From an uncultured Eubacteriales bacterium (GTDB taxonomy: Bacteria; Bacillota; Clostridia; Peptostreptococcales; Anaerovoracaceae), in assembly GCA_902798745.1 (NCBI GenBank), contig CADBXM010000008.1, forward strand, positions 1-64,000: DNA of 64,000 nucleotides, in the 5' to 3' direction. A program made the translations under genes and the position numbers. The notes under the pieces were generated by a model. It made no database searches, was not told the DNA's origin, and saw only the letters and a list, made by a program, of their open reading frames with translations. How positions within the stretch are numbered: the first letter of the stretch is position 1; each line of letters opens with the position of its first letter. This document shows positions 1 to 14,264 of this stretch, one piece after another.

Positions 1-1161
1 GTGTTGAGGCCCCAGCAGTTGTAAGCCCATGTGCACCATGCTGAGAAGTACAGCGGAGCGCATGACCATGCGATGACTCTGTGTCTTGTCATTGGGAATG
101 TGTTGATGTCTTCATCTACGCACTTCTCCATGATCTTTCTGACCTTGGAGTCAACATCATGCCAGAACTGTCTCTCGCCGTACTGTGAGTAGAAGATCCT
201 GTACAGAGCCTGAGCTACACCGTTGATAGGATAGCTGTGAGTATTTGCGGCTACATCCCATTTCTCTCTCTCGAAGAGGTTCTGCTGGTTCTGAAGCTCG
301 ATATGTTTCTTGAGCTCTTCCCAGTGGAACTCGAGTCCGGTCTGCTCTTCCATGAATCTCCATGCCATCTCGATTTCCTTGGCGCAGTTTTCGAGAACGG
401 AATCATCGTCGAACTGCATTACCTGAGGCATTGCGAAGAGTGGCTTGTTCATCATCCAGTCCTGAATGACGGAAGTTCCTACCGAGCTGTCGCAGGCTTC
501 GTTTTAGATGCCGGCCTCGGCCTGGCACATCGGACAAGGGTCTCCCGGAAGTCCGTAAGCCTGAACCGCGTCGATATAGTTGAGTACTGTGTGGTTGTTG
601 CAGTGGCATGTTACGAAGTACGGGATCATCTGTGTTGGCAGGTAATAGCCGCCCTGATCCATGTATGGATAGATAACTCCGCCCCAGACTGTCTCGTCAG
701 TACCGATAGTCTTCGCTCTGAGAGCTGGGTCTCCGCCGATGTTGAGGTCTCTGTTGAACCAGCCTGTGATCTGATACAGGCAGGCGCTTACGATTCCTCT
801 GAAGTGCCATGCGGATGCGGCGAGTGTTGGACCTCTCATGCCTTCAAGACATCTGTCGAACCAGTGGAGTACTGTCAGGTATGTCTGACCCATCCATCTG
901 TATCTCCATGTTCCCTTGAGGAACTGGATCAGGCCCTTTGGGCCGCCGCCGTAAACCATGATGTCGCGTACGCAGCCAGATATTGTTGAAGTAGTACATG
1001 GTGTCTTTTACACCACGCCATTCTCTGTGCTTATAAAGACCTGTCTTAGGAATGTACAGGTCGCCGAGACGTCTTTCGCCGTGAGGCTTGCCATACCAGA
1101 AGTCCTTTGCCAGCTTCTTGACGCCCTGTTCTTTCAGTTTGCTTAAATCTGGTTTTTTCAT
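1..1161 (-). pseudogene. Decayed 2-hydroxyacyl-CoA dehydratase, large subunit (partial, runs off the window)
   Basis: This is a broken paralogue of the 534-residue large subunit at 11458-13062. The N-terminal part (844-1161) aligns with the intact protein through the shared REWRGVKDT motif. The frame then shifts near 960-980 and similarity continues through YRWM and GLPGD.CPM...EAGI (504-959). A TAA at 504-506 follows, and about 15-18 codons present in the paralogue, including a Cys-Cys pair, are missing. After the stop the same frame continues with recognisable similarity (ACDSS against TCDGS, TRHRVIAW against YRHRCIVW) to the window edge. The C-terminal 150 or so residues lie outside. One frameshift, one stop and one deletion argue against a working product. 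The family is an HGD-D type [4Fe-4S] enzyme. Consensus sequencing errors could explain the frameshift but not the deletion. Confidence 0.8.
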
Positions 1162-1165
1162 CTTC

Positions 1166-2240
1166 TTAGCCCTCCTGGATCTTCTTGAGCTCTACGCTCT
1201 CAACGAACGCCTGGAATCTTGTTCTGAGCTGTCCGGATGCTGTGTTGATGTACTCCTTCTCGATGGAGCATACCGGGTATCCGAAGTCTCTAGGAAGAAT
1301 GATAGTGTCGATCATTCTCTCAAAGCTCCAGTATTCGCAGAACTTGTTGGATTCCACGATGATACCGTCTGCCTTGTATTCCTTCGCGTAGTCGGCAAGC
1401 ACCTGCTTGCGGTGTCTCATTTCCTGCTGCTCCATGAATCTCGCGCACTGGCTTGTCAGCAGGTAATGTCTTGCGACAGCTGTCAGAGGATCATCGCCCT
1501 CCTTGATGTCGATGTGCTGTCTGGCCTCGAGTGAGCCGTAGCAGTGTCTGTCAGCTACTACGAGAGCTCCGCAGCCTTCGATCAGCTTGATGAAGTCAGG
1601 ATCGTCGTTCTCGGAACCTGCGAGCAGGACCTTGATCTTGAAGTTTGGCTTGTCGTCAGGCTCTCTTGTCTTGAGCTCTTCGAGGGTCTCTCTGAGCGAT
1701 GTCGTTCACCTCGTTATTGACCTCGATCGCCTTCAGGATAGCTTCGTCCGATGTGTCAACGCCGAATTCCCTGTTCAGGAAGTCAAGCACGTGGATCTTG
1801 AGCTGTTTCCTGTAGTGGTCGATGCTGTTCTCGTTCTTCTTGAACGGAACGTCTGTAAACTCTGTTTTGAACGTCGCGTTGTTGATAACGCCGTCCATGT
1901 ATCCGAGATGCTCCTGGAATCTGCATGTTACCGTACAGGTCTCTGTAGAAAGCTGGGCGTCAATAAAGTTGAAGCCGCCCTCAAGAGCTCTCTCGAGAAG
2001 TGATCTGCCGTAGTGGCATGTACGTCCGGACATGTAGTATGAAGCCATGTCTGGCGATGTGCACTTAGGCGCTCTCAGTCTTACTGCGAAGCAGCCAGGC
2101 AGATCGAGGAGGACTTCAGGCATGAAGTAGCATGTGTAGCCGAGACACAGATTGCCGTCTTCTTTACCCTTGCGCACGAGCTCATTGTTAGCTTCTTGCA
2201 GCAGGTCCTCAAAGTAGATCAGATGCTTTAAGTCACGCAT
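1166..2240 (-). pseudogene. Decayed 2-hydroxyacyl-CoA dehydratase, small subunit
   Basis: This is a broken paralogue of the 400-residue subunit at 13062-14264. Residues encoded from 2240 down to about 1700 match its N-terminal half (MRDLKHLIYFEDLLQ against MKDLKHLLYFENLLQ, then NEV near the break). Around 1690 roughly 40 codons are missing and the frame changes, so the upstream frame ends at 1656. Similarity resumes in another frame (LRETLEELKTREP) and runs to 1166 through FIKLIE, ADGII, KFCEYW and the family-typical C-terminus GQLRTRFQAFVESVELKK. The start has a good ribosome-binding site (AAGGTGA). The order small subunit then large subunit equals that of the intact operon, so a whole operon was duplicated and this copy is decaying. 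Confidence 0.82.
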
Positions 2241-2574: not shown

Positions 2575-2661
2575 TAAAGCTGTACTATCTAACAGACAAA
2601 TGACAGGTATTTGCATACGTTTTTCACAGTAAAAGAAGACTTTGATCGGGGAGGAGCTGAC

Positions 2662-2970
2662 ATGTCAGAACATATCCATGAACATACTCACGCGGACGGA
2701 ACGGTCCATTCGCACGCGCATTCTCATGCAGGCGGAGACGCTCATTCGCACCCGCACACTCACGCGACTGCGTCTTCTCCGGAAGAAGCCCTCGCGCTTC
2801 TCAAATACATGCTTGATCACAACAGGCATCATGCCGAAGAGCTCCACGACCTGGCGCACTCATTCGATGATGTTGCGGCCGATCTGATCCATGACGCGGT
2901 CGACAAGCTTGGCGAAAGCAATGACCTCATTGAGCAGGCTCTTTCGCTTATTAGCAACGCAGACAAATAG
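2662..2970 (+). CDS. Small His-rich metal-binding protein
   Basis: This 102-residue protein has no signal peptide. Its first 35 residues are dominated by alternating histidines (positions 4, 6, 8, 10, 16, 18, 20, 22, 28, 30, 32 and 34), as in nickel, zinc or cobalt storage proteins and chaperones. The rest (about 40-100) is predicted alpha-helical, with more His residues in HNRHHAEELHDLAH, and resembles small Firmicute proteins often labelled metal transporter components. I chose the ATG at 2662 because GGGGAGGAG lies directly upstream; an in-frame start at 2611 lacks such a site. The gene is single, between a divergent broken operon and a bidirectional terminator. The metal is unknown. The cooT-like gene at 18012 is another possible nickel-handling protein in this window. 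Confidence 0.75.
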   Translation: MSEHIHEHTHADGTVHSHAHSHAGGDAHSHPHTHATASSPEEALALLKYMLDHNRHHAEELHDLAHSFDDVAADLIHDAVDKLGESNDLIEQALSLISNADK

Positions 2971-4546: not shown

Positions 4547-5728
4547 TTAGATGATAGGGATCTTGATCTTCAGATCGGAAGTAGGGTAGGCAGAGCAGGC
4601 GTGGAACCATCCGAGCTCCTTATCCATCGCTCTTCTGCCGTCATTAAGAGGCGATACGAAGATATTTCCTTCGAGGAGCTGGGTCCTGCAGTATCCGCAT
4701 TCACCGCCTCTGCAGTGAGTGTCGATAGGAATAGCTGCTCTTTCGAGTGCTACCGCGACCGGCTCGTCTGCTGCAGCGTCTATAACATCCTCGTGGATGC
4801 CTCGGACTACTGTAAGCTTGTACGACTTGCCTACCTGATCCATAGGGAAACCCGGGATCAGCTTTACTGCAGGCTGAGCCGAAGCGTCGTGTCTGAATCT
4901 CTTCAGAGGAACTCCCATCTCTTTCATTACCTTGTCGATCAGGAAGAACATCACCGGAGGTCCGCAGAAGAAGTACGAAGCTCCTTCAGGCGAATACTTC
5001 TTGATGATCTCTTCTGTGACGAATCCCTTCTCGCCGTCCCATTCTTCATCATCGCTCATAACGTGGACTACGTGGATCTTTTCAGGCGCGGCTTTGCGCG
5101 CTTCTTCAAGCACGTCGTAAAGCACGATATCAGTATGCTTGACGGATCCGTAGATGATCGTCAGATCGATGTCGAGACTTCCGTGAGCGATCTCCTTGGC
5201 CATGGAAACGAACGGGGTGATGCCTGATCCGCCCGCAAGACCGACTATGTGATCGGAGTCGCGGAGAGGCTCATAGTGGAACTGTCCGAAAGGCAGTGCT
5301 GCTGTGATCTCTGTTCCTACCTTTGCATTCTCGAGGAACCAGTCAGGTACCAGGTAGTGAGTGTTATGTCTGATCGTCACCTCGAAATAAGGATCATCAA
5401 GCCTTGCCTCGTAAGGTGCCGACGAGATCGAGTAAGCTCTTGTGAGCACACTGTCGCCAACGTTCAGATAGAAGTTGACGTACTGACCGCTCTGGAATAT
5501 AGGTACATGGCCGTTGACCGGCGAGAACCTGAATGTTGTCGAAGTAGGAGATGCCTCGCGTATCTCTGTGATCGTGAACTGCTGCTTGCCCGGATGGAGC
5601 AGGTCTGCGAGCTCGCGGATCGGATCCTTAGGATCAGGAATCGGAGAACCGTTGGCAATCAGCTCCTGACGCATTTTGGTGACGCGGGAGGCGCCGCCGA
5701 CATCTTTCAAAAATCCTTTTACTTTCAT
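4547..5728 (-). CDS. FAD/NAD(P)-binding reductase with C-terminal [2Fe-2S] domain
   Basis: The 393-residue product is a one-protein electron chain of the ferredoxin-NADP reductase superfamily. An FAD-binding barrel carries RAYSISSAP (97-105). A pyridine-nucleotide domain carries GGSGITP (166-172) and CGPP (255-258). A plant-type [2Fe-2S] domain at the C-terminus has Cys339, Cys344, Cys347 and Cys378. An N-terminal extension of about 45 residues precedes the barrel. Such proteins pass electrons from NAD(P)H to a partner oxidoreductase or oxygenase. No oxygenase is nearby. The gene is last in a three-gene operon, 15 bases after a CrtI/RetSat-type flavoprotein and behind a PAI-type isomerase, so reducing the flavoprotein is the obvious proposed job (inference). 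It also resembles reductases fused to hybrid-cluster or phenol hydroxylase systems. Confidence 0.88.
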   Translation of the reverse strand: MKVKGFLKDVGGASRVTKMRQELIANGSPIPDPKDPIRELADLLHPGKQQFTITEIREASPTSTTFRFSPVNGHVPIFQSGQYVNFYLNVGDSVLTRAYSISSAPYEARLDDPYFEVTIRHNTHYLVPDWFLENAKVGTEITAALPFGQFHYEPLRDSDHIVGLAGGSGITPFVSMAKEIAHGSLDIDLTIIYGSVKHTDIVLYDVLEEARKAAPEKIHVVHVMSDDEEWDGEKGFVTEEIIKKYSPEGASYFFCGPPVMFFLIDKVMKEMGVPLKRFRHDASAQPAVKLIPGFPMDQVGKSYKLTVVRGIHEDVIDAAADEPVAVALERAAIPIDTHCRGGECGYCRTQLLEGNIFVSPLNDGRRAMDKELGWFHACSAYPTSDLKIKIPII

Positions 5729-5743
5729 GTGGCTGCCTCCTTT

Positions 5744-7282
5744 CTAAGCCTTCTTGCTGTTTACCGCGTCAATGACTGCCTTGGCGGCGGCGCGGCCGTT
5801 CGTGACGGCCGGACCCATGCCGTTACCGCTGATGGCATGGGCTCCCGCGAACTCGAGTCCGTCAATAAAGTGATCGGCCTCTTTCATCTGGAGCCTCGCC
5901 ACAGCGTGGTCATCGATGCTGTGGGAATAACCGTAAATGCTGCCCTTCCATGCGCCTACATAGTGGGCTATCGTGACAGGTGTCGAGACTTCGATCTCAA
6001 CGATGTGGTCACGCAGGTTGACCCCGCTGACTTTCTCGTATTCGTCGATCATATCGTTCGCCAGCTTACGCTTGAAATCGTAGTAGTCCTCTTCCTTGAG
6101 GTCGAGGAATCCCTGTACGAGCGGCAGGAAAGTGATCGAGAACTGGCACATGCCGTCCGGCGTCGCGTCCGGATTTGCCAGATCGAGGCAGATGGAAGTC
6201 AGATACTTGTAAGGTCCGGCAGTCTTGCCCTGCTCCCAGATCTTATCGGTATCCATAGTCTCGCCAGCCGAGAAGATGTTGTAGTCCTTGATGCCGAGGT
6301 TCTCAGGAGTGTCGTCGAGCACCATCATGGCCGATACTGTCGTGACCGAAAGCCTGCGTCCGTTTACCATCTTTATCGCTCCGACCGGCACCTCAGACAG
6401 CGGCTCTATCATTTGGGTGTATACCTTGTTTGGATATGCTCTGCTGATGACATAGTCGCAGTTGATAGTATCGCCGCGCTTTGTGCGCACGCCCGTGACC
6501 TTGCCGTCCTTCACGAGAATCTTCTCGACTTCCTGGCAGAACTCGATCTGAGCGCCGTTCTCCTCGGCCTTGGCCTGGAGCTTCATGCTCATCTCGTGCG
6601 AATACTTCCTGGCCACATAACTGCCGCCGCGGAAGTAGTCTGCCATCAGGAAAGCATAGATGGTGAACGGAAGAGTGCTCAGCGGATTGCCGACGTAGAT
6701 CCAATACGGAGACAGGATGTCGACTATATCCTGCGGGAATCCGAATGTGTCGATGACCTCGGTCGCTGTATAGCCCGCAGTCTTTACGAAATCAGGATGC
6801 TTCATCAGCATGGCAGGCTTGCTCATCGGCGTCACCGAGAGGGTGTTCATCGAATCATAGACCGTGTTGCAGAGATTCATGAGCTCAAGCACCTTAGGAC
6901 CCCAACCTGGATACTGCGCGTCTATCTCGTTCGCCATTCTCTCAAAGCCCGCGTGCAGAGTGATGTCGATGCCCTTGCTAGGCTCGACGAATCTGTATGC
7001 TTCAGGCACCTTGAGCCAGTCGATGTCGACACCGCACTCATCGAAGAAGACTCCTACCTTGAGGCGGTCTTCCTTTGAGCCGATGCTCATCATTTCGTGG
7101 AGTGTAGCCTCGATCTCGATTCCGTTGCGGACATAGCTCGTCGCGAGTCCACCCGGGAGATTGTGCTTCTCCAGGATAAGGATGTCGTTGATGCCCTTCT
7201 GCTGAAGCTGAAGCGCCGCGGAGAGACCCGAAAGGGCTCCTCCGATGATCACGACATCATAGTGATCTTTGTAAAATTTCAT
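5744..7282 (-). CDS. CrtI/RetSat-family FAD oxidoreductase (candidate double-bond reductase)
   Basis: The 512-residue product starts with an FAD-binding Rossmann motif (DVVIIGGALSGLSAA, about 9-23), followed by LEKHNLPGGLATS, which is the adenine/ribose contact of phytoene desaturase-like proteins. The C-terminal part has FAGAHAISGNGMGPAVTNGRAAA, the second FAD motif of this family. The family includes phytoene desaturases, carotenoid isomerases and retinol saturase, all acting on conjugated C=C bonds. No carotenoid genes are present. Its operon partners are the [2Fe-2S] reductase (downstream, 15 bases) and the PAI-like isomerase (upstream, 94 bases). A role in reducing or shifting double bonds of an unsaturated fatty acid or acyl chain is therefore suggested; the substrate is not shown by the sequence. 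A long antisense reading frame over this gene is a codon-bias shadow. Confidence 0.82.
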   Translation of the reverse strand: MKFYKDHYDVVIIGGALSGLSAALQLQQKGINDILILEKHNLPGGLATSYVRNGIEIEATLHEMMSIGSKEDRLKVGVFFDECGVDIDWLKVPEAYRFVEPSKGIDITLHAGFERMANEIDAQYPGWGPKVLELMNLCNTVYDSMNTLSVTPMSKPAMLMKHPDFVKTAGYTATEVIDTFGFPQDIVDILSPYWIYVGNPLSTLPFTIYAFLMADYFRGGSYVARKYSHEMSMKLQAKAEENGAQIEFCQEVEKILVKDGKVTGVRTKRGDTINCDYVISRAYPNKVYTQMIEPLSEVPVGAIKMVNGRRLSVTTVSAMMVLDDTPENLGIKDYNIFSAGETMDTDKIWEQGKTAGPYKYLTSICLDLANPDATPDGMCQFSITFLPLVQGFLDLKEEDYYDFKRKLANDMIDEYEKVSGVNLRDHIVEIEVSTPVTIAHYVGAWKGSIYGYSHSIDDHAVARLQMKEADHFIDGLEFAGAHAISGNGMGPAVTNGRAAAKAVIDAVNSKKA

Positions 7283-7306
7283 ATGTTCTCCTTAAATAAC
7301 AGATAT

Positions 7307-7356
7307 GAAAAGCCTCGGCTCAGGCGCATTACCTGCGGCTTTCGCTTTGGCTTTTC
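7307..7356 (-). repeat. Inverted repeat between the isomerase and flavoprotein genes
   Basis: GAAAAGCC (7307-7314) and GGCTTTTC (7349-7356) are an 8-bp inverted repeat enclosing a smaller GC-rich repeat in the 94-base intergenic space. It lacks a U run and is more likely an mRNA processing or stability hairpin than a terminator. The downstream gene has its own ribosome-binding site (AAGGAGA). Confidence 0.45.
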
Positions 7357-7376
7357 GTTTCTGCTTAAAATGCGAT

Positions 7377-8762
7377 TTAGAAGAATCTCTCTACGAGTTC
7401 ACGGCTGTACTCTGCAGTCTCATCCATGTCGCCGAACGCCATGACTTCGCCTGCGTAGTAAGTGTCATACTTGCCCTGCATAGCTTCGACCTTGTCATAC
7501 CAACCGGCAGCGTAGTCTTCGCTGAATACATGTGGGAAGTAGTATACTGACCACTCGTTGATGACCTCTTTTGCAGGGTTGTGCATTGTCTTGAGGTCGT
7601 CCTGTACAGTCTGTCTTACCTTTTCATAAGGGATCTCCGCAGTGTCTTTGTGCTTACGCAGAGCGTAAGTTGTGATGACCTGATCGATCTCGTCTCTCCA
7701 TCTTCTGTAGTAAACCATCAGATGTCCGAGTCTCTCTTTGACCATGTTGTCGAATACGTAGTAGCTGATCTCAGGGTGATCCTGTGGCTCTGTGAGGACA
7801 GCCTGTACATCGTATCTCTCGTAATCGATCTTGCTGAAGAGTTCCTTCTCGTCGTCTCTGGCGTCGAAGTAGTCTACCATGCCTACCTGTCCGTCGTATC
7901 TCTTGTTAGGGATGTAGAGCGGAGCGGTAACGATGATCTTGTCATACTCTTCAACCTTGCCGTTGACTGTTACATAAACCTTGCCGTCCTTACGCTCGAC
8001 CTTGTCGATCTTGCTGTTGAGTCTTGCAGGATGTTTCAGCTTGGCGTCGAGGCACTCCCAGATCCACTGTGTTCCCTCTTTCCATGTCCAGAGGTTGACC
8101 TTTACGAAGTTCATTGTTGTCTGGAAGTCGAGATACTTCAGAACGTAGCCTGCAGGGATCTCGTCAAAGTAACCATATCCGAATGATGTGTAAGGTCCGA
8201 TCCACACATCCTGAACCAGCTCAACGTTGTTCTTCTTGCAGAACTCGCTGAATGGAAGAGCGAGGTCTTTGAGGTTAGGGTTCTCGCCGCTTACAGGCTC
8301 ACGCTCAGGTGTGCAAGCGAATCCCTCGTAACGACCCTCGGCAACGCCGCGGTGACCATTGATGTCATATCCCTGATACTTTGTCTCGAGAAGTTCTCCG
8401 AATTCCTTCAGCTGCTTCTTCATCTTGAGCAGTCTAGGGATCTTGAGGATGTTCTTCTTAGGCTCGAATGGCTCGATAACCTTTCCGTCTTTGTTCTTGT
8501 AGTTACGGTTCAGCTTTGGACCATCGTGAGTGATGCCGCAGAATTCCTCTACGTCGTGTACTGCGTAGTAGGAAGGAACGCCCATGATAGCTCCCATCTC
8601 GTAACGTCTGCCGTTGTATGTCGGCGACCAGCACTTTCCGCCTACGCGGTCAAGTCTCTCGAGGATAGTGTAGTTCTCGTAGCCCTTCTGCTCGAGATAC
8701 ATACCCGCGGACAGTCCTGCAGGGCCTCCGCCTACGATGCAGATCTTGATGTTCTTATCCAT
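7377..8762 (-). CDS. PAI-like polyunsaturated fatty acid isomerase (FAD-dependent)
   Basis: The 461-residue product strongly resembles, from memory, the Cutibacterium acnes polyunsaturated fatty acid isomerase that converts linoleate to 10-trans,12-cis conjugated linoleate. Shared stretches include the FAD motif VGGGPAGLSAGMYLEQ (about 10-25), ILERLDRVGGKC (33-44), RRYEMGAIMGVPSY (52-65), TKYQGYDINGH (127-137), the block around FGYGYFDEIPAGYVLKYLDF (194-213), LWTWKEGTQ (224-232), and near the end YYFPHVFSEDYAAGWY and YAGEVMAFGDMDE. An insertion of about 25 residues (about 141-165) is absent from PAI as I recall it. The enzyme family is soluble and uses FAD in an internal hydride-transfer isomerisation. 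The gene is first in the redox operon, diverging from the ligase-ACP-thioesterase operon. The substrate could be another polyunsaturated acid. Confidence 0.85.
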   Translation of the reverse strand: MDKNIKICIVGGGPAGLSAGMYLEQKGYENYTILERLDRVGGKCWSPTYNGRRYEMGAIMGVPSYYAVHDVEEFCGITHDGPKLNRNYKNKDGKVIEPFEPKKNILKIPRLLKMKKQLKEFGELLETKYQGYDINGHRGVAEGRYEGFACTPEREPVSGENPNLKDLALPFSEFCKKNNVELVQDVWIGPYTSFGYGYFDEIPAGYVLKYLDFQTTMNFVKVNLWTWKEGTQWIWECLDAKLKHPARLNSKIDKVERKDGKVYVTVNGKVEEYDKIIVTAPLYIPNKRYDGQVGMVDYFDARDDEKELFSKIDYERYDVQAVLTEPQDHPEISYYVFDNMVKERLGHLMVYYRRWRDEIDQVITTYALRKHKDTAEIPYEKVRQTVQDDLKTMHNPAKEVINEWSVYYFPHVFSEDYAAGWYDKVEAMQGKYDTYYAGEVMAFGDMDETAEYSRELVERFF

Positions 8763-8859
8763 TTAGAATTGCCTCCTTAGTATAAAACGTGCAAATATGT
8801 TCTCCGTTTCGTTCATGTTGAAATGCACAATATATGTAGAGAACTCAACGCTGTTATTA

Positions 8860-8865
8860 TATAAT
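8860..8865 (+). promoter_or_regulatory. Putative -10 box of the ligase-ACP-thioesterase operon
   Basis: TATAAT stands 46 bases before the ATG at 8912 in the 149-base divergent space. No convincing -35 box is seen at the right distance, so an activator may be needed. The minus-strand side of the same space has TATACT directly before the AGGAGG of the isomerase gene. Confidence 0.35.
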
Positions 8866-8911
8866 CAAGTTGCTGTATTATCAACGAAAACGACCAAGAA
8901 GGAAACTAAAA

Positions 8912-10270
8912 ATGTATAAAAAGTTTTCATCATTCGAAGAACTCGTATCGGATTTCAGGACTCGCGACCTGATCGCGCTCAGATATGCCGACGACGAGGA
9001 TAATCTACACGATATTTCTTATGCCGAACTCGCTGAAATGATAGTCGCGGAGACGAAGCGCATCAAAGCCGGACACAGCGATGTTGAGGTGGTACGTGAT
9101 GAGCAGTCGCCCGAGACCATCGTGAGCATCTTCGCCCACGTTATGGCGGGCTGCGACATCATCATCGCCGATCCAATGGTGCCCGATGATGCCGTAAGCA
9201 GAGCTGACGCCGCGGCGACCGCCGCGAAAGCAGCCCGCGCTGAAGCGGAAGGCGAAACCGGCAGCCACGCTTCCCCAAACGGCGAGGGAGAGCTTCTCTT
9301 CTTCACTTCGGGAACCACCAGCCGCTCAAAGATAGTAAGGCTGACTTCTCAGTCCTTCTGCACGAGCGCATGGAGCGGCCAGAGCATGCTGGCCTGCGGT
9401 GAGGGTGACATAATACTCTCGATACTTCCGCTCTCACATGTGTTCGGTTTCGTATGCTCGATGCTGTGGGGCTTTGCCTACGGAGCAACGATTGCTCTCG
9501 GCAGGGGAGTCAGACATATAGTGGACGACACTCTCTTCTTCAAGCCTACGATACTTCCTGCGGTTCCGACACTTATCGGCGCGATGCTCAAATTCGATAC
9601 ACTCAATCCAGAACTCAAGGTTGCCTTGATCGGTGCTGCTCCTTGCACACCTGAAGTCACCGCGGCGCTTAGAGCGAAAGGCATCGACGTATATCTTGGT
9701 TACGGTCTAACTGAGACATCAAGTGGCATAGCGATCACGCAGGATCTCGACGAGCCCGAGGCTCTCTATCCTTGCCCAGGAGCGGACTTCCGCATCGAAG
9801 AAGACGGGGAAGTCACAATCGCGACTCCTTGTATGATGCAAGGCTACATAGGAGCTGAGCCAATGTTTGAAGGAGACAGGTTCTTCACCGGTGACCTCGG
9901 ATGGTTTGATGAAAAGGGAAGGCTGCATTTGAAGGGCCGCAAAAAAGACGTGCTTCTTATGCCAGACGGCACCAAGATCTTCTGCCCTGAGTACGAAGAC
10001 GATCTGATGAAACACTCGAGCCTTCCTGACCTCGGTATCGTTATGAAGGATGGTCACGCGGTGCTCGTTGCCGGCTCGCTCACAGATGACCCGGCCATCG
10101 CTGAAGACATCAGAAGCAAAATGCTCAAAAAAGTCGGTGAATACAACAAATCTCTGCAGCGCTCACAGCAGATCTACGACGTGATCGTCAGAAAAGAACC
10201 GCTGCCTCGCACCGCGACGGGCAAGCTGAAGCGCTACGAGCTGCAGGACGAGATAGACTGCTCCTGCTGA
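8912..10270 (+). CDS. Acyl-activating (AMP-forming) ligase, probably loading the adjacent ACP
   Basis: The 452-residue product is of the ANL adenylating superfamily. It has the P-loop-like FTSGTTSRSK (131-140), the GYGLTETSS motif (263-271), FTGDLGWFDEKGRLHLKGRKKD (325-346) and a C-terminal Lys motif in TATGKLKRYEL. It is shorter than typical acyl-CoA synthetases (500-560), mainly in the N-terminal domain. The ATG at 8912 was chosen because AAGGA lies 10 bases upstream; the longer in-frame start at 8870 overlaps the promoter. An ACP gene and an acyl-ACP thioesterase gene follow, so it likely adenylates a carboxylic acid and passes it to that carrier. The acid is unknown; a fatty acid is suggested by the neighbours. 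Confidence 0.82.
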   Translation: MYKKFSSFEELVSDFRTRDLIALRYADDEDNLHDISYAELAEMIVAETKRIKAGHSDVEVVRDEQSPETIVSIFAHVMAGCDIIIADPMVPDDAVSRADAAATAAKAARAEAEGETGSHASPNGEGELLFFTSGTTSRSKIVRLTSQSFCTSAWSGQSMLACGEGDIILSILPLSHVFGFVCSMLWGFAYGATIALGRGVRHIVDDTLFFKPTILPAVPTLIGAMLKFDTLNPELKVALIGAAPCTPEVTAALRAKGIDVYLGYGLTETSSGIAITQDLDEPEALYPCPGADFRIEEDGEVTIATPCMMQGYIGAEPMFEGDRFFTGDLGWFDEKGRLHLKGRKKDVLLMPDGTKIFCPEYEDDLMKHSSLPDLGIVMKDGHAVLVAGSLTDDPAIAEDIRSKMLKKVGEYNKSLQRSQQIYDVIVRKEPLPRTATGKLKRYELQDEIDCSC

Positions 10271-10341
10271 CATCACGAAACAATATTCATATATATAATC
10301 ATTCACAATTTAAATTGACCCCTACAAAAGGAGAACTGTAA

Positions 10342-10590
10342 ATGGAACTTACACGCGACGAAATAAAGGAAAAGGTTATAAAGCTCATCCACAACTTCAT
10401 CCCTGAACTTCAGGACGCGGAGCTTGAAGAAGACTCGATCATCAACACCGATACAAACATCGACTCGCTGAGCCTTATCATGCTCATCACAAAAGTCGAG
10501 TCGACTTTCAATATCCGCATCCCACGCAAGGAATGGACTTCGATCAATACTCTCGGTGAGCTTCTTGACAAGATCGAAGAACTCAAATAG
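10342..10590 (+). CDS. Acyl carrier protein
   Basis: The 82-residue, acidic, four-helix protein has the phosphopantetheine attachment motif IDSLSL with Ser42. It replaces the canonical Gly-Asp-Ser-Leu with Ile-Asp-Ser-Leu, typical of dedicated rather than fatty-acid-synthase ACPs. A strong ribosome-binding site (AAAGGAGAA) precedes the ATG. It sits 71 bases behind the ligase and its TAG abuts the ATG of the thioesterase gene (TAGATG), indicating translational coupling. It presumably carries the acyl group from the ligase to tailoring enzymes and then to the thioesterase. No phosphopantetheinyl transferase is visible here. Confidence 0.88.
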   Translation: MELTRDEIKEKVIKLIHNFIPELQDAELEEDSIINTDTNIDSLSLIMLITKVESTFNIRIPRKEWTSINTLGELLDKIEELK

Positions 10591-11325
10591 ATGGAAACCC
10601 GGGATCCACTGATTTACGAGAAAAAAATCCTCATTAGAAGCGAGCAGGTCGACATGACCCGCCGTCTTCGTATGTCCGATCTTTTCAGGCTTCTTGAGGA
10701 AGCATCGATCGCGCATACCGAGCTGCTCGGCTGCACCAGAGATAAGACACTCGACAGGGGTCTGCTGTGGATAATCACACGCCAATTCGTTGAGATCAAT
10801 GAACTTCCGGCCTACGACGATGAGATCATCGTAAGGAGCTGGCAGGGCGAGATGCAGCATGTATTCTTCCCGCGTTTCTACGAGATAGAAAGGGCGGGGG
10901 AGGTCCTCGTGAAAGGGCAGGCTCTCTGGATGCTTATGAAAGAAGATGACCGCTCGATGGTGATGCCTGAAGACTACGATATCTCTATCCCTGGCAAGCC
11001 GGACGCGGATGATATGGTGCTTCCTGCGATCGTGATACCAAAGGATATAGATGCAGAGGAGAGCCATCAGCTGGTGACGCGCTTCAGTCAGGTCGACATC
11101 AACGGTCACATGAACAACACTCGCTACTTCGATGTTATAGATGACATGCTCAACTCTAGCGCTGACTCTCAGCCCGCAGCAGTGCCAAAGCGGGTGCTCG
11201 CCAACTATCTGTCTGAGCTGCGACTGGGCGATGAGTTCACGCTCAGCAAGTATGTGAATGATGGTACGCTGTATTTCGAAGGCGTTTCAGATGGACCGTG
11301 TTTCAGAGTCAGATACGAATACTGA
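10591..11325 (+). CDS. Acyl-ACP thioesterase (FatA/FatB-like)
   Basis: The 244-residue product has the double hotdog layout of plant and bacterial acyl-ACP thioesterases. The signature DINGHMNNTRYFD (169-181) holds the Asn and His of the family active site. The first hotdog (about 10-130) contains the usual aromatic/GRLxxxWxI-like stretch (GLLWIITRQFVEI, 57-69). It hydrolyses acyl-ACP to free fatty acid plus ACP. The gene starts right at the ACP stop codon and relies on coupling. Together with the ligase it forms a load-carry-release module without a ketosynthase, suggesting modification rather than elongation of an acyl chain. Confidence 0.85.
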   Translation: METRDPLIYEKKILIRSEQVDMTRRLRMSDLFRLLEEASIAHTELLGCTRDKTLDRGLLWIITRQFVEINELPAYDDEIIVRSWQGEMQHVFFPRFYEIERAGEVLVKGQALWMLMKEDDRSMVMPEDYDISIPGKPDADDMVLPAIVIPKDIDAEESHQLVTRFSQVDINGHMNNTRYFDVIDDMLNSSADSQPAAVPKRVLANYLSELRLGDEFTLSKYVNDGTLYFEGVSDGPCFRVRYEY

Positions 11326-11457: not shown

Positions 11458-13062
11458 TTACCACATGTTCTCGTCTGGAATATGCTCGATAGTCGGGTCA
11501 AGCGGCTCTTCGCGGAGTACAGTACGCATGTACTGGCTGAACTCGTCGCGGATGGCCTGTCTTGTGTAGACTCTTGGATCGCAGAGGTCGTGGCATACCC
11601 AAACAACGTGGATACCTCTCTCGCGTCCCTGCTCCTCGAACTGTCCGTGGAGTCCATCGAGAGCTTTGCAGCTCATGTGCTCCCACATCATTACCATATC
11701 GGCGTTCATGATCTCGCAGAACTCCCAAAGCTCGTCAACGAGCACTTTGTATCCGCCGTGTGTACGGTTACGCATGATCATGTTCTCGTTGAGCCATGCC
11801 ATGTCGTACCAGGCTTTCTCTCTGTTCTCAGGAGTATCATCTTCTGCGATCGGGAGGGTATTGACCATGGAGAGCATGTCTGTCAGTGGCAGTACGCCCC
11901 AGCAGTGGATCATCCAGTAAAGCATGTGGATGTTGTACTGTGGCTGAACGCCCCATACGATGCAGCGGTGCCTGTATTCAGGCGCCATCATGGTCTTTTT
12001 CTTGTATCCCTGCTCGACGAGTTTGCTGATCTTCTTGTCCTTTGGAGGGAAGAGCTCGGAACGTCCGCAGTTGCCCATGTAGTTGGTGTCGTTATACAGC
12101 GAGAATACCGAGCCGCAGAACTGCGGATAATCGGTGCTGTTGGTCTCGAGCCAGAATGCTCTGTGCTTGGTAGCGTCGTTCACGCGGGCAGCGCTTTCGA
12201 AGTAGCGTTTCCAGCTCCATTTCTCGTGAGCGTGCTCTTCGATGAACTTGACAGCTTCCTGCATATCTCTCGCAGCGTATTCCTGTACGTCGTCTTCTCT
12301 GTGACGCATCGGGGCCGAGAGCTGGAAGGTAGGAATGCCGTATTCTCTCTCGAGTCTATGAGCGATAACCCCGTTGCCCATCAGAGAACCATCGCAAGTC
12401 GTGTTGACCTGTACCGCGCAGCATCCGAGTACTGCGAAGTCATCGTCGATCGAGATGCCGGCCTCAGCTTCAGGCATCGGGCAGACATCGCCAGGAAGTC
12501 CGAATTCCTGAGCCACGTCGAGATAGTGAGTTGTCGAATTCTGTGTCAGGAGGTTGGCGACGAACATGGTAGGGACCTCTCTCAGGATAGCTGTCGTATC
12601 CTTGAATCCCATCATGAATGCTGTCATCGCGTTTTCATCTGTCAGTACGCAAGTCTTCGAGAACTCCTCGTCGTTACCTGTGCGGCGGTCGCCTTTGAAG
12701 ATGTTGTCCATCGTTTTGGCTACGTCGTAGATAACGAAGTTCATCGCGGTATGCGTGATGCGCAGAGGCTCATCTCTGAGACCCAGCGTGAATTTATCCA
12801 TCATGTAAGGAACAGCCAGATAGTTGGCCATCCATCTGTAGCGGAACATCGCTTTGATGTTCCTTGGCTTCGCGATGAATCTCGCAAGGATGGACATGAT
12901 GTAGAGCCATCTCGAATAATCGTAAAGAGTATCCTTTACGCCCCTCCATTCACGACGTACAAAGACCTTGGTCTTGCCGTTCGTTGGATAGAGTTTACCG
13001 AGAGTCTGGTCACCTTTTTTCTTCTTAGGATTTGTGATCTTCTTAACTGTCTTGTAAGCCAT
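11458..13062 (-). CDS. 2-hydroxyacyl-CoA dehydratase / benzoyl-CoA reductase-type, large subunit
   Basis: The 534-residue product belongs to the HGD-D superfamily. Its candidate Fe-S ligands are Cys residues in GLPGDVCPMPEAEAG, GCCAVQVNTTCDGS, YMGNCGRS, HMSCKALDG and CHDLCDPRV. The family includes HgdA/B, FldB/C and BcrB/C, which use a [4Fe-4S] cluster and ATP-driven single-electron transfer for reductive dehydration or ring reduction. At 534 residues it is longer than the usual 380-480, with a basic N-terminal extension. Its ATG overlaps the stop of the small-subunit gene (TAATG). No ATPase activator (HgdC/FldI type) is in the window and one must exist elsewhere. The substrate is unknown. 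The next-door ACP and fatty acid-isomerase-like genes suggest an acyl chain. Confidence 0.8.
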   Translation of the reverse strand: MAYKTVKKITNPKKKKGDQTLGKLYPTNGKTKVFVRREWRGVKDTLYDYSRWLYIMSILARFIAKPRNIKAMFRYRWMANYLAVPYMMDKFTLGLRDEPLRITHTAMNFVIYDVAKTMDNIFKGDRRTGNDEEFSKTCVLTDENAMTAFMMGFKDTTAILREVPTMFVANLLTQNSTTHYLDVAQEFGLPGDVCPMPEAEAGISIDDDFAVLGCCAVQVNTTCDGSLMGNGVIAHRLEREYGIPTFQLSAPMRHREDDVQEYAARDMQEAVKFIEEHAHEKWSWKRYFESAARVNDATKHRAFWLETNSTDYPQFCGSVFSLYNDTNYMGNCGRSELFPPKDKKISKLVEQGYKKKTMMAPEYRHRCIVWGVQPQYNIHMLYWMIHCWGVLPLTDMLSMVNTLPIAEDDTPENREKAWYDMAWLNENMIMRNRTHGGYKVLVDELWEFCEIMNADMVMMWEHMSCKALDGLHGQFEEQGRERGIHVVWVCHDLCDPRVYTRQAIRDEFSQYMRTVLREEPLDPTIEHIPDENMW

Positions 13063-14264
13063 TATTTCACACCTCCCTGCAGTTTCTTTATCTCAATGCT
13101 CTCGATGAAGGCCTGTACACGTGTACGCATCTGGCCTGCACCGGAACTGATGTTATACGGCCTGTCTACGGAAAGTACAGGGAAGCCGTAGTCTTCACGA
13201 AGCATGTGCGAACCGAGCATCCTCTCATAAGCCCATGGGTCGCAGAACTTGACCTGCTCGTAGATGACACCATCTGCATTGTATTCCTTCGCGATGTCGT
13301 TCACGTATTTCTTGCGGCCATAGACCTTTTCCATGTTCATCATACGTGGGCACTGTCCCTTCATAGTGTAATGGCGGCAGATCTGAGTAATGATGTCGTC
13401 CTCTGAATTGTCATCGATCTCGATAGGAACTCTGCCAGGAAGCGAGCCGAAGCAGTATCTGTCAGCGCATACATATGTGCCGGTGTCTTCGATCAGTTTT
13501 ATGAATGCGACGTCATCTACCTCGGAGCCGACTACCACGACGCGTGCGCGCCACTTCTTGCCGTCCGGTTCTCTTGTCTTGACCTCCTCTAGTGTCTCAC
13601 GGAGTTTATCGATGAGGAGATACTTAGGAGCAAGATACGTAGCAAGTGTGAATACCGCGAATTCGTAACCTGTGATGCGTGGGTCTTCCTCTTTACGGAA
13701 CTCACCGAGCTCGCGGATCAGCCTGCAGACCTCGTTGTGTTCTTCAACGGCCTTGCGGATGGCTTCTTCCGAAACATCAACTCCGTAGTGCTCGTGAAGC
13801 GGATTCAGGATGTGGTTCTGCACCTGGAGCTTCATCAGATCTACGCCGATCTCAGTGGCCTTCAGCGGGATCTCCATGAAATGATAGAAGAAATTGCTCT
13901 TGCCTTCATCCATGGTATGCAGAAGTTCCATGTTCTCGGCAGCACGGTTCATCATTGTGCAACCATCAGCAGCTACCAGGCAGTCAGCAAAATTGTATCC
14001 GCCCTCGATAGCTCTCTCCAGCAGCGCTCTGCTCGTTTCGCACAGGAAGCTCGTCATGTAGTATGTAGCTATGTCAAGCGATCCTGAATTAGGCGCAAAA
14101 AGACGAACTGAAAAGGCATTGCCGATATTAAGCAGCGGTTCAGGAATATTCTCGCATGTAAAAGCCGCGCAAATATTCCCCTCCGCTTTGGCCTGCTCGA
14201 TCAGTTCGTTGTTAGCGTTCTGCAGGAGGTTTTCAAAATACAAAAGATGCTTAAGATCCTTCAT
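13062..14264 (-). CDS. 2-hydroxyacyl-CoA dehydratase / benzoyl-CoA reductase-type, small subunit
   Basis: The 400-residue product carries the recognisable C-terminal signature of HGD-D proteins: NADGVIYEQVKFCDPWAYER, then GFPVLSVDRPY and GAGQMRTRVQAFIESIEIKK. Cysteines near CPRMM, DRYCFGS and KFCDPW are candidate cluster ligands. It should pair with the 534-residue partner as the catalytic heterodimer. It is first in the two-gene operon and overlaps the partner start by one base. The starting ATG is preceded by AAGAGGTG. The broken paralogue at 1166-2240 is closely similar in sequence, showing duplication of the whole operon. Confidence 0.84.
   Translation of the reverse strand: MKDLKHLLYFENLLQNANNELIEQAKAEGNICAAFTCENIPEPLLNIGNAFSVRLFAPNSGSLDIATYYMTSFLCETSRALLERAIEGGYNFADCLVAADGCTMMNRAAENMELLHTMDEGKSNFFYHFMEIPLKATEIGVDLMKLQVQNHILNPLHEHYGVDVSEEAIRKAVEEHNEVCRLIRELGEFRKEEDPRITGYEFAVFTLATYLAPKYLLIDKLRETLEEVKTREPDGKKWRARVVVVGSEVDDVAFIKLIEDTGTYVCADRYCFGSLPGRVPIEIDDNSEDDIITQICRHYTMKGQCPRMMNMEKVYGRKKYVNDIAKEYNADGVIYEQVKFCDPWAYERMLGSHMLREDYGFPVLSVDRPYNISSGAGQMRTRVQAFIESIEIKKLQGGVK

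Follow-up and report, generated by a model that had tools for sequence, protein, structure and literature searches.

Ruminal biohydrogenation sets the amount of saturated and trans fat that reaches milk and meat, and one conjugated linoleic acid (CLA), the trans-10,cis-12 isomer, is reported to depress milk fat synthesis (PMC11770317). The polyunsaturated fatty acid isomerase (PAI) of Propionibacterium acnes (Cutibacterium) yields trans-10,cis-12 CLA from linoleate (PMC2885616), and PAI-type genes have already been published in seven rumen metagenome-assembled genomes (MAGs; PMC10019597). Butyrivibrio fibrisolvens has a CLA reductase that reduces conjugated acids, not the non-conjugated trans-11,cis-15 18:2 (PMC2654759), and that uses NADH 1:1 (Hunter 1976, cited in PMC4478896). 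The gene sequence of this enzyme was reported in 2007; in 2015 the fatty acid reductase was in no family database, so that genomes could not be searched for it (PMC4478896). Lactiplantibacillus plantarum takes another route, in which a hydratase, a dehydrogenase, a decarboxylase and an enone reductase (CLA-HY/DH/DC/ER) act together (PMC13365329). Here we describe a gene cluster in a stretch of 64,000 nucleotides (the window; positions 1 to 64,000 of contig CADBXM010000008.1, assembly GCA_902798745.1) from an uncultured Eubacteriales bacterium of the family Anaerovoracaceae, in which a PAI-type gene is followed by genes for a CrtI-fold flavoprotein (SAT) and for an NAD(P)H:[2Fe-2S] flavoprotein reductase (RED).

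An original prediction, made from the letters of the window alone, had read these three genes as an operon that isomerises and then reduces polyunsaturated fatty acids (PUFA). We consider it reasonably probable that the locus is a PUFA-biohydrogenation island, in which PUFA would be isomerised to a conjugated acid and then reduced with electrons from NAD(P)H, perhaps on a dedicated acyl carrier protein (ACP). The residues kept in PAI, the co-occurrence of the genes and a second kind of locus with IsrA-like genes all lend support to the isomerise-then-reduce idea, although the coupling appears not to be strict and the unit seems larger than the original prediction had it.

Results

The isomerase is related to P. 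acnes PAI over its full length

The window PAI (Table 1) belongs to the Pfam family Amino_oxidase and is a full-length relative of the P. acnes enzyme (PDB 2b9w), with 225 of 416 aligned residues identical (54%). Three residues of 2b9w, R88, F168 and F193, are reportedly the substrate-site residues of PAI (Liavonchanka 2006). They align with R86, F194 and F219 of the window protein, and these positions are invariant in all 80 rows of an alignment of the window with 79 loci. The proposal of a PAI-like FAD isomerase is thus borne out by overall identity and by the retained residues, and the loss of the PAI active site that had been named as a finding to look for was not seen: the window copy keeps these substrate-site residues. 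We strongly infer that the enzyme acts on free PUFA and gives a conjugated diene.

Table 1. Position and assignment of the features of the cluster in the window.
Feature	Position	Strand	Assignment
PAI gene	7377..8762	-	PAI-type FAD-dependent polyunsaturated fatty acid isomerase, 461 aa; PDB 2b9w E 7e-138
SAT gene	5744..7282	-	CrtI-fold flavoprotein, candidate conjugated-diene saturase, 512 aa, 56.8 kDa
RED gene	4547..5728	-	NAD(P)H:[2Fe-2S] flavoprotein reductase, 393 aa; would donate electrons to SAT
Divergent intergenic region	8763..8911	.	promoter-like sites for both operons
ACS gene	8912..10270	+	acyl-CoA/acyl-ACP synthetase-like AMP ligase, 452 aa; AMP-binding 122.9 bits
ACP gene	10342..10587	+	dedicated acyl carrier protein, 82 aa
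TE gene	10591..11325	+	acyl-ACP thioesterase, 244 aa; PF01643 and PF20791 over cut-off

PAI, SAT and RED adjoin one another in rumen genomes

The three genes predicted to form one minus-strand operon are present as intact open reading frames (ORFs) that run in the same direction, with gaps of 15 and 94 bases between them. A scan of genome contigs with a PAI alignment returned 401 relatives, and the best 80 of the 401 (84-97% identity) are the named loci used below. SAT stands directly after PAI in 79 of the 80 named loci and RED follows in 74, every miss of SAT or RED being a contig end, and the grouping is therefore not a matter of chance. A search of genomes for the three-gene neighbourhood, proposed with the original prediction, accordingly found the genes together in related as well as distant rumen genomes. 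A separate alignment (A2, 35 rows) was built from the window, 24 of 35 loci picked by a diversity script and 10 sequences from further genomes. Beyond the unit itself, the IsrA-like gene and HypA/HypB, no neighbour family occurs in more than 13 of the 80 loci: among ORFs outside the query set one family reaches 13 loci and the rest four at most, and within the query set none exceeds six.

The NCBI labels of the 80 records, which may be wrong for MAGs, place 75 in Bacillota, three in Actinomycetota and two in Spirochaetota. A ruminant host is named in 32 record titles (goat 15, sheep 6, dairy cattle 5, water buffalo 3, red deer 1, roe deer 1, yak 1), a RUG label stands in 34 and no host is given in 14; as RUG stands for rumen uncultured genome, 66 of the 80 titles point to ruminants. 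PAI is 86-91% identical to clostridial copies in two loci with Sphaerochaetaceae titles (L193, L209) and in three with Coriobacteria titles (L167, L201, L223), which represent either horizontal transfer or mis-binned contigs.

SAT and RED form a near-obligate pair

RED carries the Pfam domains FAD_binding_6 and NAD_binding_1 and a C-terminal plant-type Fer2 domain, whose cluster cysteines C339, C344, C347 and C378 are invariant in 11 of 11 aligned homologues. These domains for FAD, NAD(P)H and [2Fe-2S], together with the four cysteines, confirm the FAD/[2Fe-2S] reductase that had been proposed. Across 47 genomes of the window's genus, RED lies downstream of SAT on the same strand and within 700 bp in 67 of 72 SAT rows, and SAT lies upstream of RED in 68 of 69 RED rows, which makes their pairing near-obligate. 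Of the five SAT rows that lack RED, two are gene halves in G033, where RED begins at the contig end, one is half of a split gene in G067, one a contig-end piece in G010 and one a partial match in G019; the sole RED row that lacks SAT is again from G033, a piece at a contig end. Protein distances of SAT and RED are closely correlated over 54 rows (Mantel r = 0.93), against 0.45 for PAI and SAT.

SAT falls in Pfam family Amino_oxidase, with nucleotide-binding domains over the Pfam cut-off, and its best NCBIfam model is crtI_fam at 100.6 bits, under the cut-off of 238.1. Its AlphaFold2 model (pLDDT 89.8) has as its best solved Foldseek match the carotenoid desaturase 4rep (E 1.5e-29, TM 0.81/0.84), and a fold closest to a carotenoid desaturase, from a family that acts on polyenes, is in favour of a biohydrogenation role. 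Retinol saturase was not found among the solved-structure matches of SAT. The CrtI-family placement in the original prediction accordingly holds for the fold, while the curated family cut-offs are not reached. The dinucleotide motif of the window copy reads GGALSG, with Ala for the middle Gly, and several orthologues have GGGLxG (canonical GxGxxG). The SAT beside PAI forms a distinct group, 51-94% identical to the window copy in 79 named loci, whereas other paralogues of the genus are at 30-37%. In the window genome (G000) two further SAT-RED pairs without PAI lie at G000:C12:42707-45380 and G000:C11:67802-70543, with SAT at 31-35% identity.

Oxidation of an alkyl chain with NAD(P)+ as acceptor is thermodynamically uphill in an anaerobe. 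No match to the phytoene synthase family was found in the window genome (0/1; 93% complete), while the same search was positive in 7 of 14 control genomes. Reduction is favoured over desaturation on both of these counts. The second makes a carotenoid role unlikely, and we rejected an ordinary carotenoid cluster.

A divergent operon encodes a ligase, a carrier protein and a thioesterase

On the plus strand, at 8912-11325, a divergent operon of ACS, ACP and TE, absent from the original prediction, is part of the same unit. ACS is divergent from PAI in 73 of the 80 named loci, and an ACP match is present in 68 and TE in 67; in L119, a locus of G278, which belongs to a different genus of the family, the six genes share a single direction. 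Adenylation-type motifs were located in ACS. ACP scores 22.6 bits with PP-binding (cut-off 20.8) and is 94% identical to the L110 copy, which bears a DSL motif.

Within the genus, the ligase, ACP and thioesterase adjoin PAI in all seven PAI genomes. Among the 47 genomes, thioesterases with 59% identity or more are confined to these seven and to one contig-end fragment in G001, and more distant ones (at most 39%) are found in most. Five orthologous loci that lack PAI and have enough flank to judge (L127, L128, L129, L132, L133) gave no ACP or thioesterase match. Given this shared distribution, PAI, ACP and TE with their ligase appear to have been gained or lost as a group around SAT-RED.

Of all promoter-like matches in the scanned stretch, the best two fall within the 149 bases that separate the operons, one per strand, at 11 and 10 of 12 bases: TTGATA-17-TATAAT on the minus strand (8884-8856) and TAGAGA-17-TATAAT on the plus strand (8837-8865). 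The stretch as a whole shows no excess of such matches (6 observed, 6.2 expected from shuffling). AAGGAGG stands upstream of the PAI start and AAGGAAAC upstream of the ligase start.

Synonymous divergence (pS) and nonsynonymous divergence (pN) were compared over 300 random pairs, with incomplete and split genes excluded and the window included (rows: PAI 80, SAT 75, RED 71, ACS 61; 54 with all four). Median pS was 0.58 for PAI, 0.60 for SAT, 0.63 for RED and 0.66 for ACS, and median pN was 0.09, 0.24, 0.29 and 0.32, PAI being the most constrained. With synonymous divergence similar for all four genes, we rejected a recent separate spread of PAI alone; as pS is near saturation for many pairs, its likeness speaks only against such a recent transfer. 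Two other candidate histories were set aside. PAI is not a common gene of the phylum, as only the window genome matched at E <= 1e-60 among 398 evenly drawn phylum genomes, and a plasmid-borne origin finds no plasmid match of at least 60% identity for SAT (15 records) or PAI (3 records).

PAI-like loci without SAT-RED carry IsrA-like genes

IsrA of Acetobacterium wieringae is a proposed isoprene reductase, isoprene being a conjugated diene, and HypA, HypB and DUF5692 are known neighbours of its homologues (PMC10134865). An oleate hydratase adjoins IsrA homologues in A. woodii and A. fimetarium, and the text searched has no match for linole-, isomerase, amine oxidase or retinol (PMC10134865).

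Ten PAI-like loci without SAT-RED came from six of 15 matching genomes lacking the pair and from four weaker full-frame matches, short N-terminal matches being excluded: G332 and G348 (54%), and G169, G037, G075, G132, G050, G039, G042 and G041 (25-30%). All ten have IsrA-like, HypB and HypA genes near PAI, and eight have DUF5692; the names HypA, HypB and DUF5692 were given by appearance and Pfam-checked on one or two copies each, other copies being named by similarity. Unlike SAT, the IsrA-like proteins contain GltD-like Fe-S/flavin domains. Wherever flank is available in these sets, a PAI-family locus therefore comes with a candidate reductase of conjugated dienes, from one or both of two unrelated kinds. 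That loci without SAT-RED adjoin another candidate diene reductase adds weight to the isomerise-then-reduce reading. Four aligned PAI homologues at 28-29% keep the Arg and the F219 positions and have Tyr at F194, so their substrate may differ.

IsrA-like genes also occur beside the complete unit, in 48 of the 80 named loci (27 of the 40 that are wide on both sides), and in 40 of the 80 the gene lies downstream of RED, on its strand and no more than 1.2 kb away. HypA and HypB each have a match in 21 of the 80. At six PAI-less orthologous loci (L127-L131, L133) a DUF5692 membrane protein stands divergent from SAT, in the place of PAI; since DUF5692 is known from the surroundings of IsrA as well, the two reductases may have it as a common partner. 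In L115 a possible remnant of 25 residues lies downstream of RED.

A proposed pathway and the points that weigh against it

In the pathway we propose, PAI would use FAD without net redox change to turn free linoleate into a conjugated diene, the trans-10,cis-12 form being the most likely, a step for which the case is strong. SAT would then add to this diene a proton and a hydride taken from reduced FAD, giving a trans monoene, and RED would supply SAT with electrons of NAD(P)H by way of FAD and [2Fe-2S], the two proteins acting as a two-component saturase. Trans-10,cis-12 CLA and then trans-10 18:1 are the predicted products because of what the P. acnes enzyme makes (PMC2885616). With less assurance, we suggest that the ligase loads the acid on the dedicated ACP and that the thioesterase frees the product, so that reduction may run on the carrier. 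Many other species have an IsrA-like gene, frequently together with HypA/HypB, next to the unit or in place of SAT-RED. The likely benefits would be detoxification of PUFA and disposal of reducing equivalents.

Only tentatively do we extend this to a full carrier-protein cycle. It would comprise PAI, the ligase, the dedicated ACP, either SAT-RED or a nickel-chaperone-linked IsrA-like reductase, and the thioesterase, with SAT-RED and IsrA as exchangeable cassettes on one conserved isomerase in many uncultured rumen bacteria. A role in such a load-reduce-release cycle would account for all of ACS, ACP and TE, and is the least certain part of the scheme.

Several observations weigh against a PUFA-biohydrogenation island. 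PAI is present in only seven of the 47 genus genomes (4 of the 18 more complete ones) and CrtI-like proteins (E <= 1e-20) in 31, so the coupling of PAI to the pair is not strict; genomes of the genus can carry SAT-RED and lack PAI, the isomerase being optional there. At the orthologous locus SAT in most cases shares 87-95% identity with the window copy (59% in G026), whether PAI is present or absent, and it may therefore act on substrates that PAI does not make. Nor does the fold prove reduction, as CrtI-fold enzymes include isomerases and the structural ranking after 4rep mixes amine oxidases (1o5w, E 6.4e-21) with CrtI (4dgk, rank 7, E 4.4e-20). Individual loci also depart from the pattern: Ser replaces Arg at the R88 position in L119, PAI of G023 (L112, G023:C7:8803-10178) is split over two overlapping frames with one TGA, through either real loss or assembly error, and ACS is missing near PAI in L154, L165 and L192 despite available flank. 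Finally, no IsrA-like match was found in positions 1-25000 of the window (Hyp genes were not searched for there), and the IsrA-like genes of the window genome lie on other contigs, the nearest relative on C5 at 72%. IsrA-like genes form a multi-copy family, present in 45 of 47 genus genomes with as many as six matches in one genome, which makes their adjacency to PAI weaker as evidence, and we call them IsrA-like and not IsrA itself.

Other explanations of the unit

The dispersal of the pair would also fit a general reductase of activated or conjugated polyenes, such as plant terpenoids or phenolics, for which the PAI linkage is one use among several. There are up to four SAT matches per genus genome, SAT-RED without PAI in many of them and three pairs in the window genome itself. 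Such a reading fits less well with the separation of the PAI-linked SAT from its paralogues, and the acyl ligase, ACP and thioesterase neighbours point to acyl chains; we hold it to be unlikely, if the best placed of the alternatives.

Somewhat less likely still, SAT could be a CrtISO-like cis-trans isomerase that needs reduced FAD, with RED keeping the flavin reduced, so that no double bond is lost and the unit makes conjugated trans isomers. Carotenoid isomerase is indeed the second-best NCBIfam model of SAT (carot_isom, 89.1 bits, under its cut-off of 586.9), and the CrtI fold hosts isomerases, PAI being among the relatives. However, a dedicated NAD(P)H reductase after nearly every SAT fits stoichiometric electron use better than priming, and a candidate diene reductase stands by PAI-like genes where SAT-RED is absent.

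The ACP and acyl ligase genes of the divergent operon could instead belong to an anabolic unit that remodels fatty acids for membranes, ACS-ACP feeding phospholipid synthesis with no reduced waste released. We find this improbable, since the same operon encodes a thioesterase of the kind that frees acids, and since PAI relatives were not found elsewhere in the even draw of 398 phylum genomes while most titles point to ruminants, where feed brings PUFA. Although the nearest solved structure of SAT is a desaturase, it is very improbable that SAT makes conjugated polyenes while RED passes electrons to NAD(P)+, a reaction uphill in an anaerobe, in a genome without the phytoene synthase family.

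Neighbouring genes

Two gene pairs of the 2-hydroxyacyl-CoA dehydratase/double-cubane type (HGD-D) flank the cluster, at window positions 11458-14264 and 1-2240 (minus strand), the latter in pieces and cut by the window start. Such pairs are near the locus in part of the genus and, among the 80 named loci, only in L144-L146. A strongly histidine-rich protein of 104 aa, metal-binding in appearance, is encoded at 2656-2970 (plus strand), and its place near the cluster is kept in part of the genus, perhaps with a link to metal supply.

Discussion

The gene set described here probably moves and then removes double bonds of PUFA, and it recurs in many rumen bacteria. As a specific set found in many uncultured rumen lineages, it makes the question of the fatty acid reductase testable with few expressed proteins. 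For the IsrA homologues, which are widespread and for the most part uncharacterised, the cluster points to a possible role, and for CrtI-fold enzymes that have a dedicated [2Fe-2S] reductase it suggests a new reaction. The original prediction had regarded the grouping as undescribed, and we likewise found no description of it in the open-licence literature, preprints and subscription papers aside. We call the chemistry and the families known, and the gene set, the apparent reductase type and the possible carrier cycle new.

Among known systems, P. acnes PAI belongs to the same family as the window PAI, with 54% identity and the same three reported substrate-site residues; the window enzyme is encoded in an operon with a reductase pair. 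The B. fibrisolvens CLA reductase (Hughes 1982, Fukuda 2007) shares with SAT-RED the proposed function of conjugated-acid reduction, the two being likened by function and not by sequence. The chain of that enzyme is reportedly about 60 kDa, against 56.8 kDa for SAT, and RED would be an added component. The L. plantarum system has the same proposed overall outcome, linoleate to CLA to monoene, and the proteins of the window cluster are of other families. In the isr operon of A. wieringae, IsrA stands with HypA and HypB, much as IsrA-like, HypB and HypA genes, often with DUF5692, stand beside PAI-like genes, and both are proposed to act on conjugated dienes; the difference lies in the reductase, GltD-like Fe-S/flavin domains in the IsrA-like proteins as against the CrtI fold of SAT. 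With the retinol saturase, CrtI and CrtISO family, SAT shares its fold and a weak profile similarity under the curated cut-offs, and it differs in having a dedicated [2Fe-2S] reductase as its partner.

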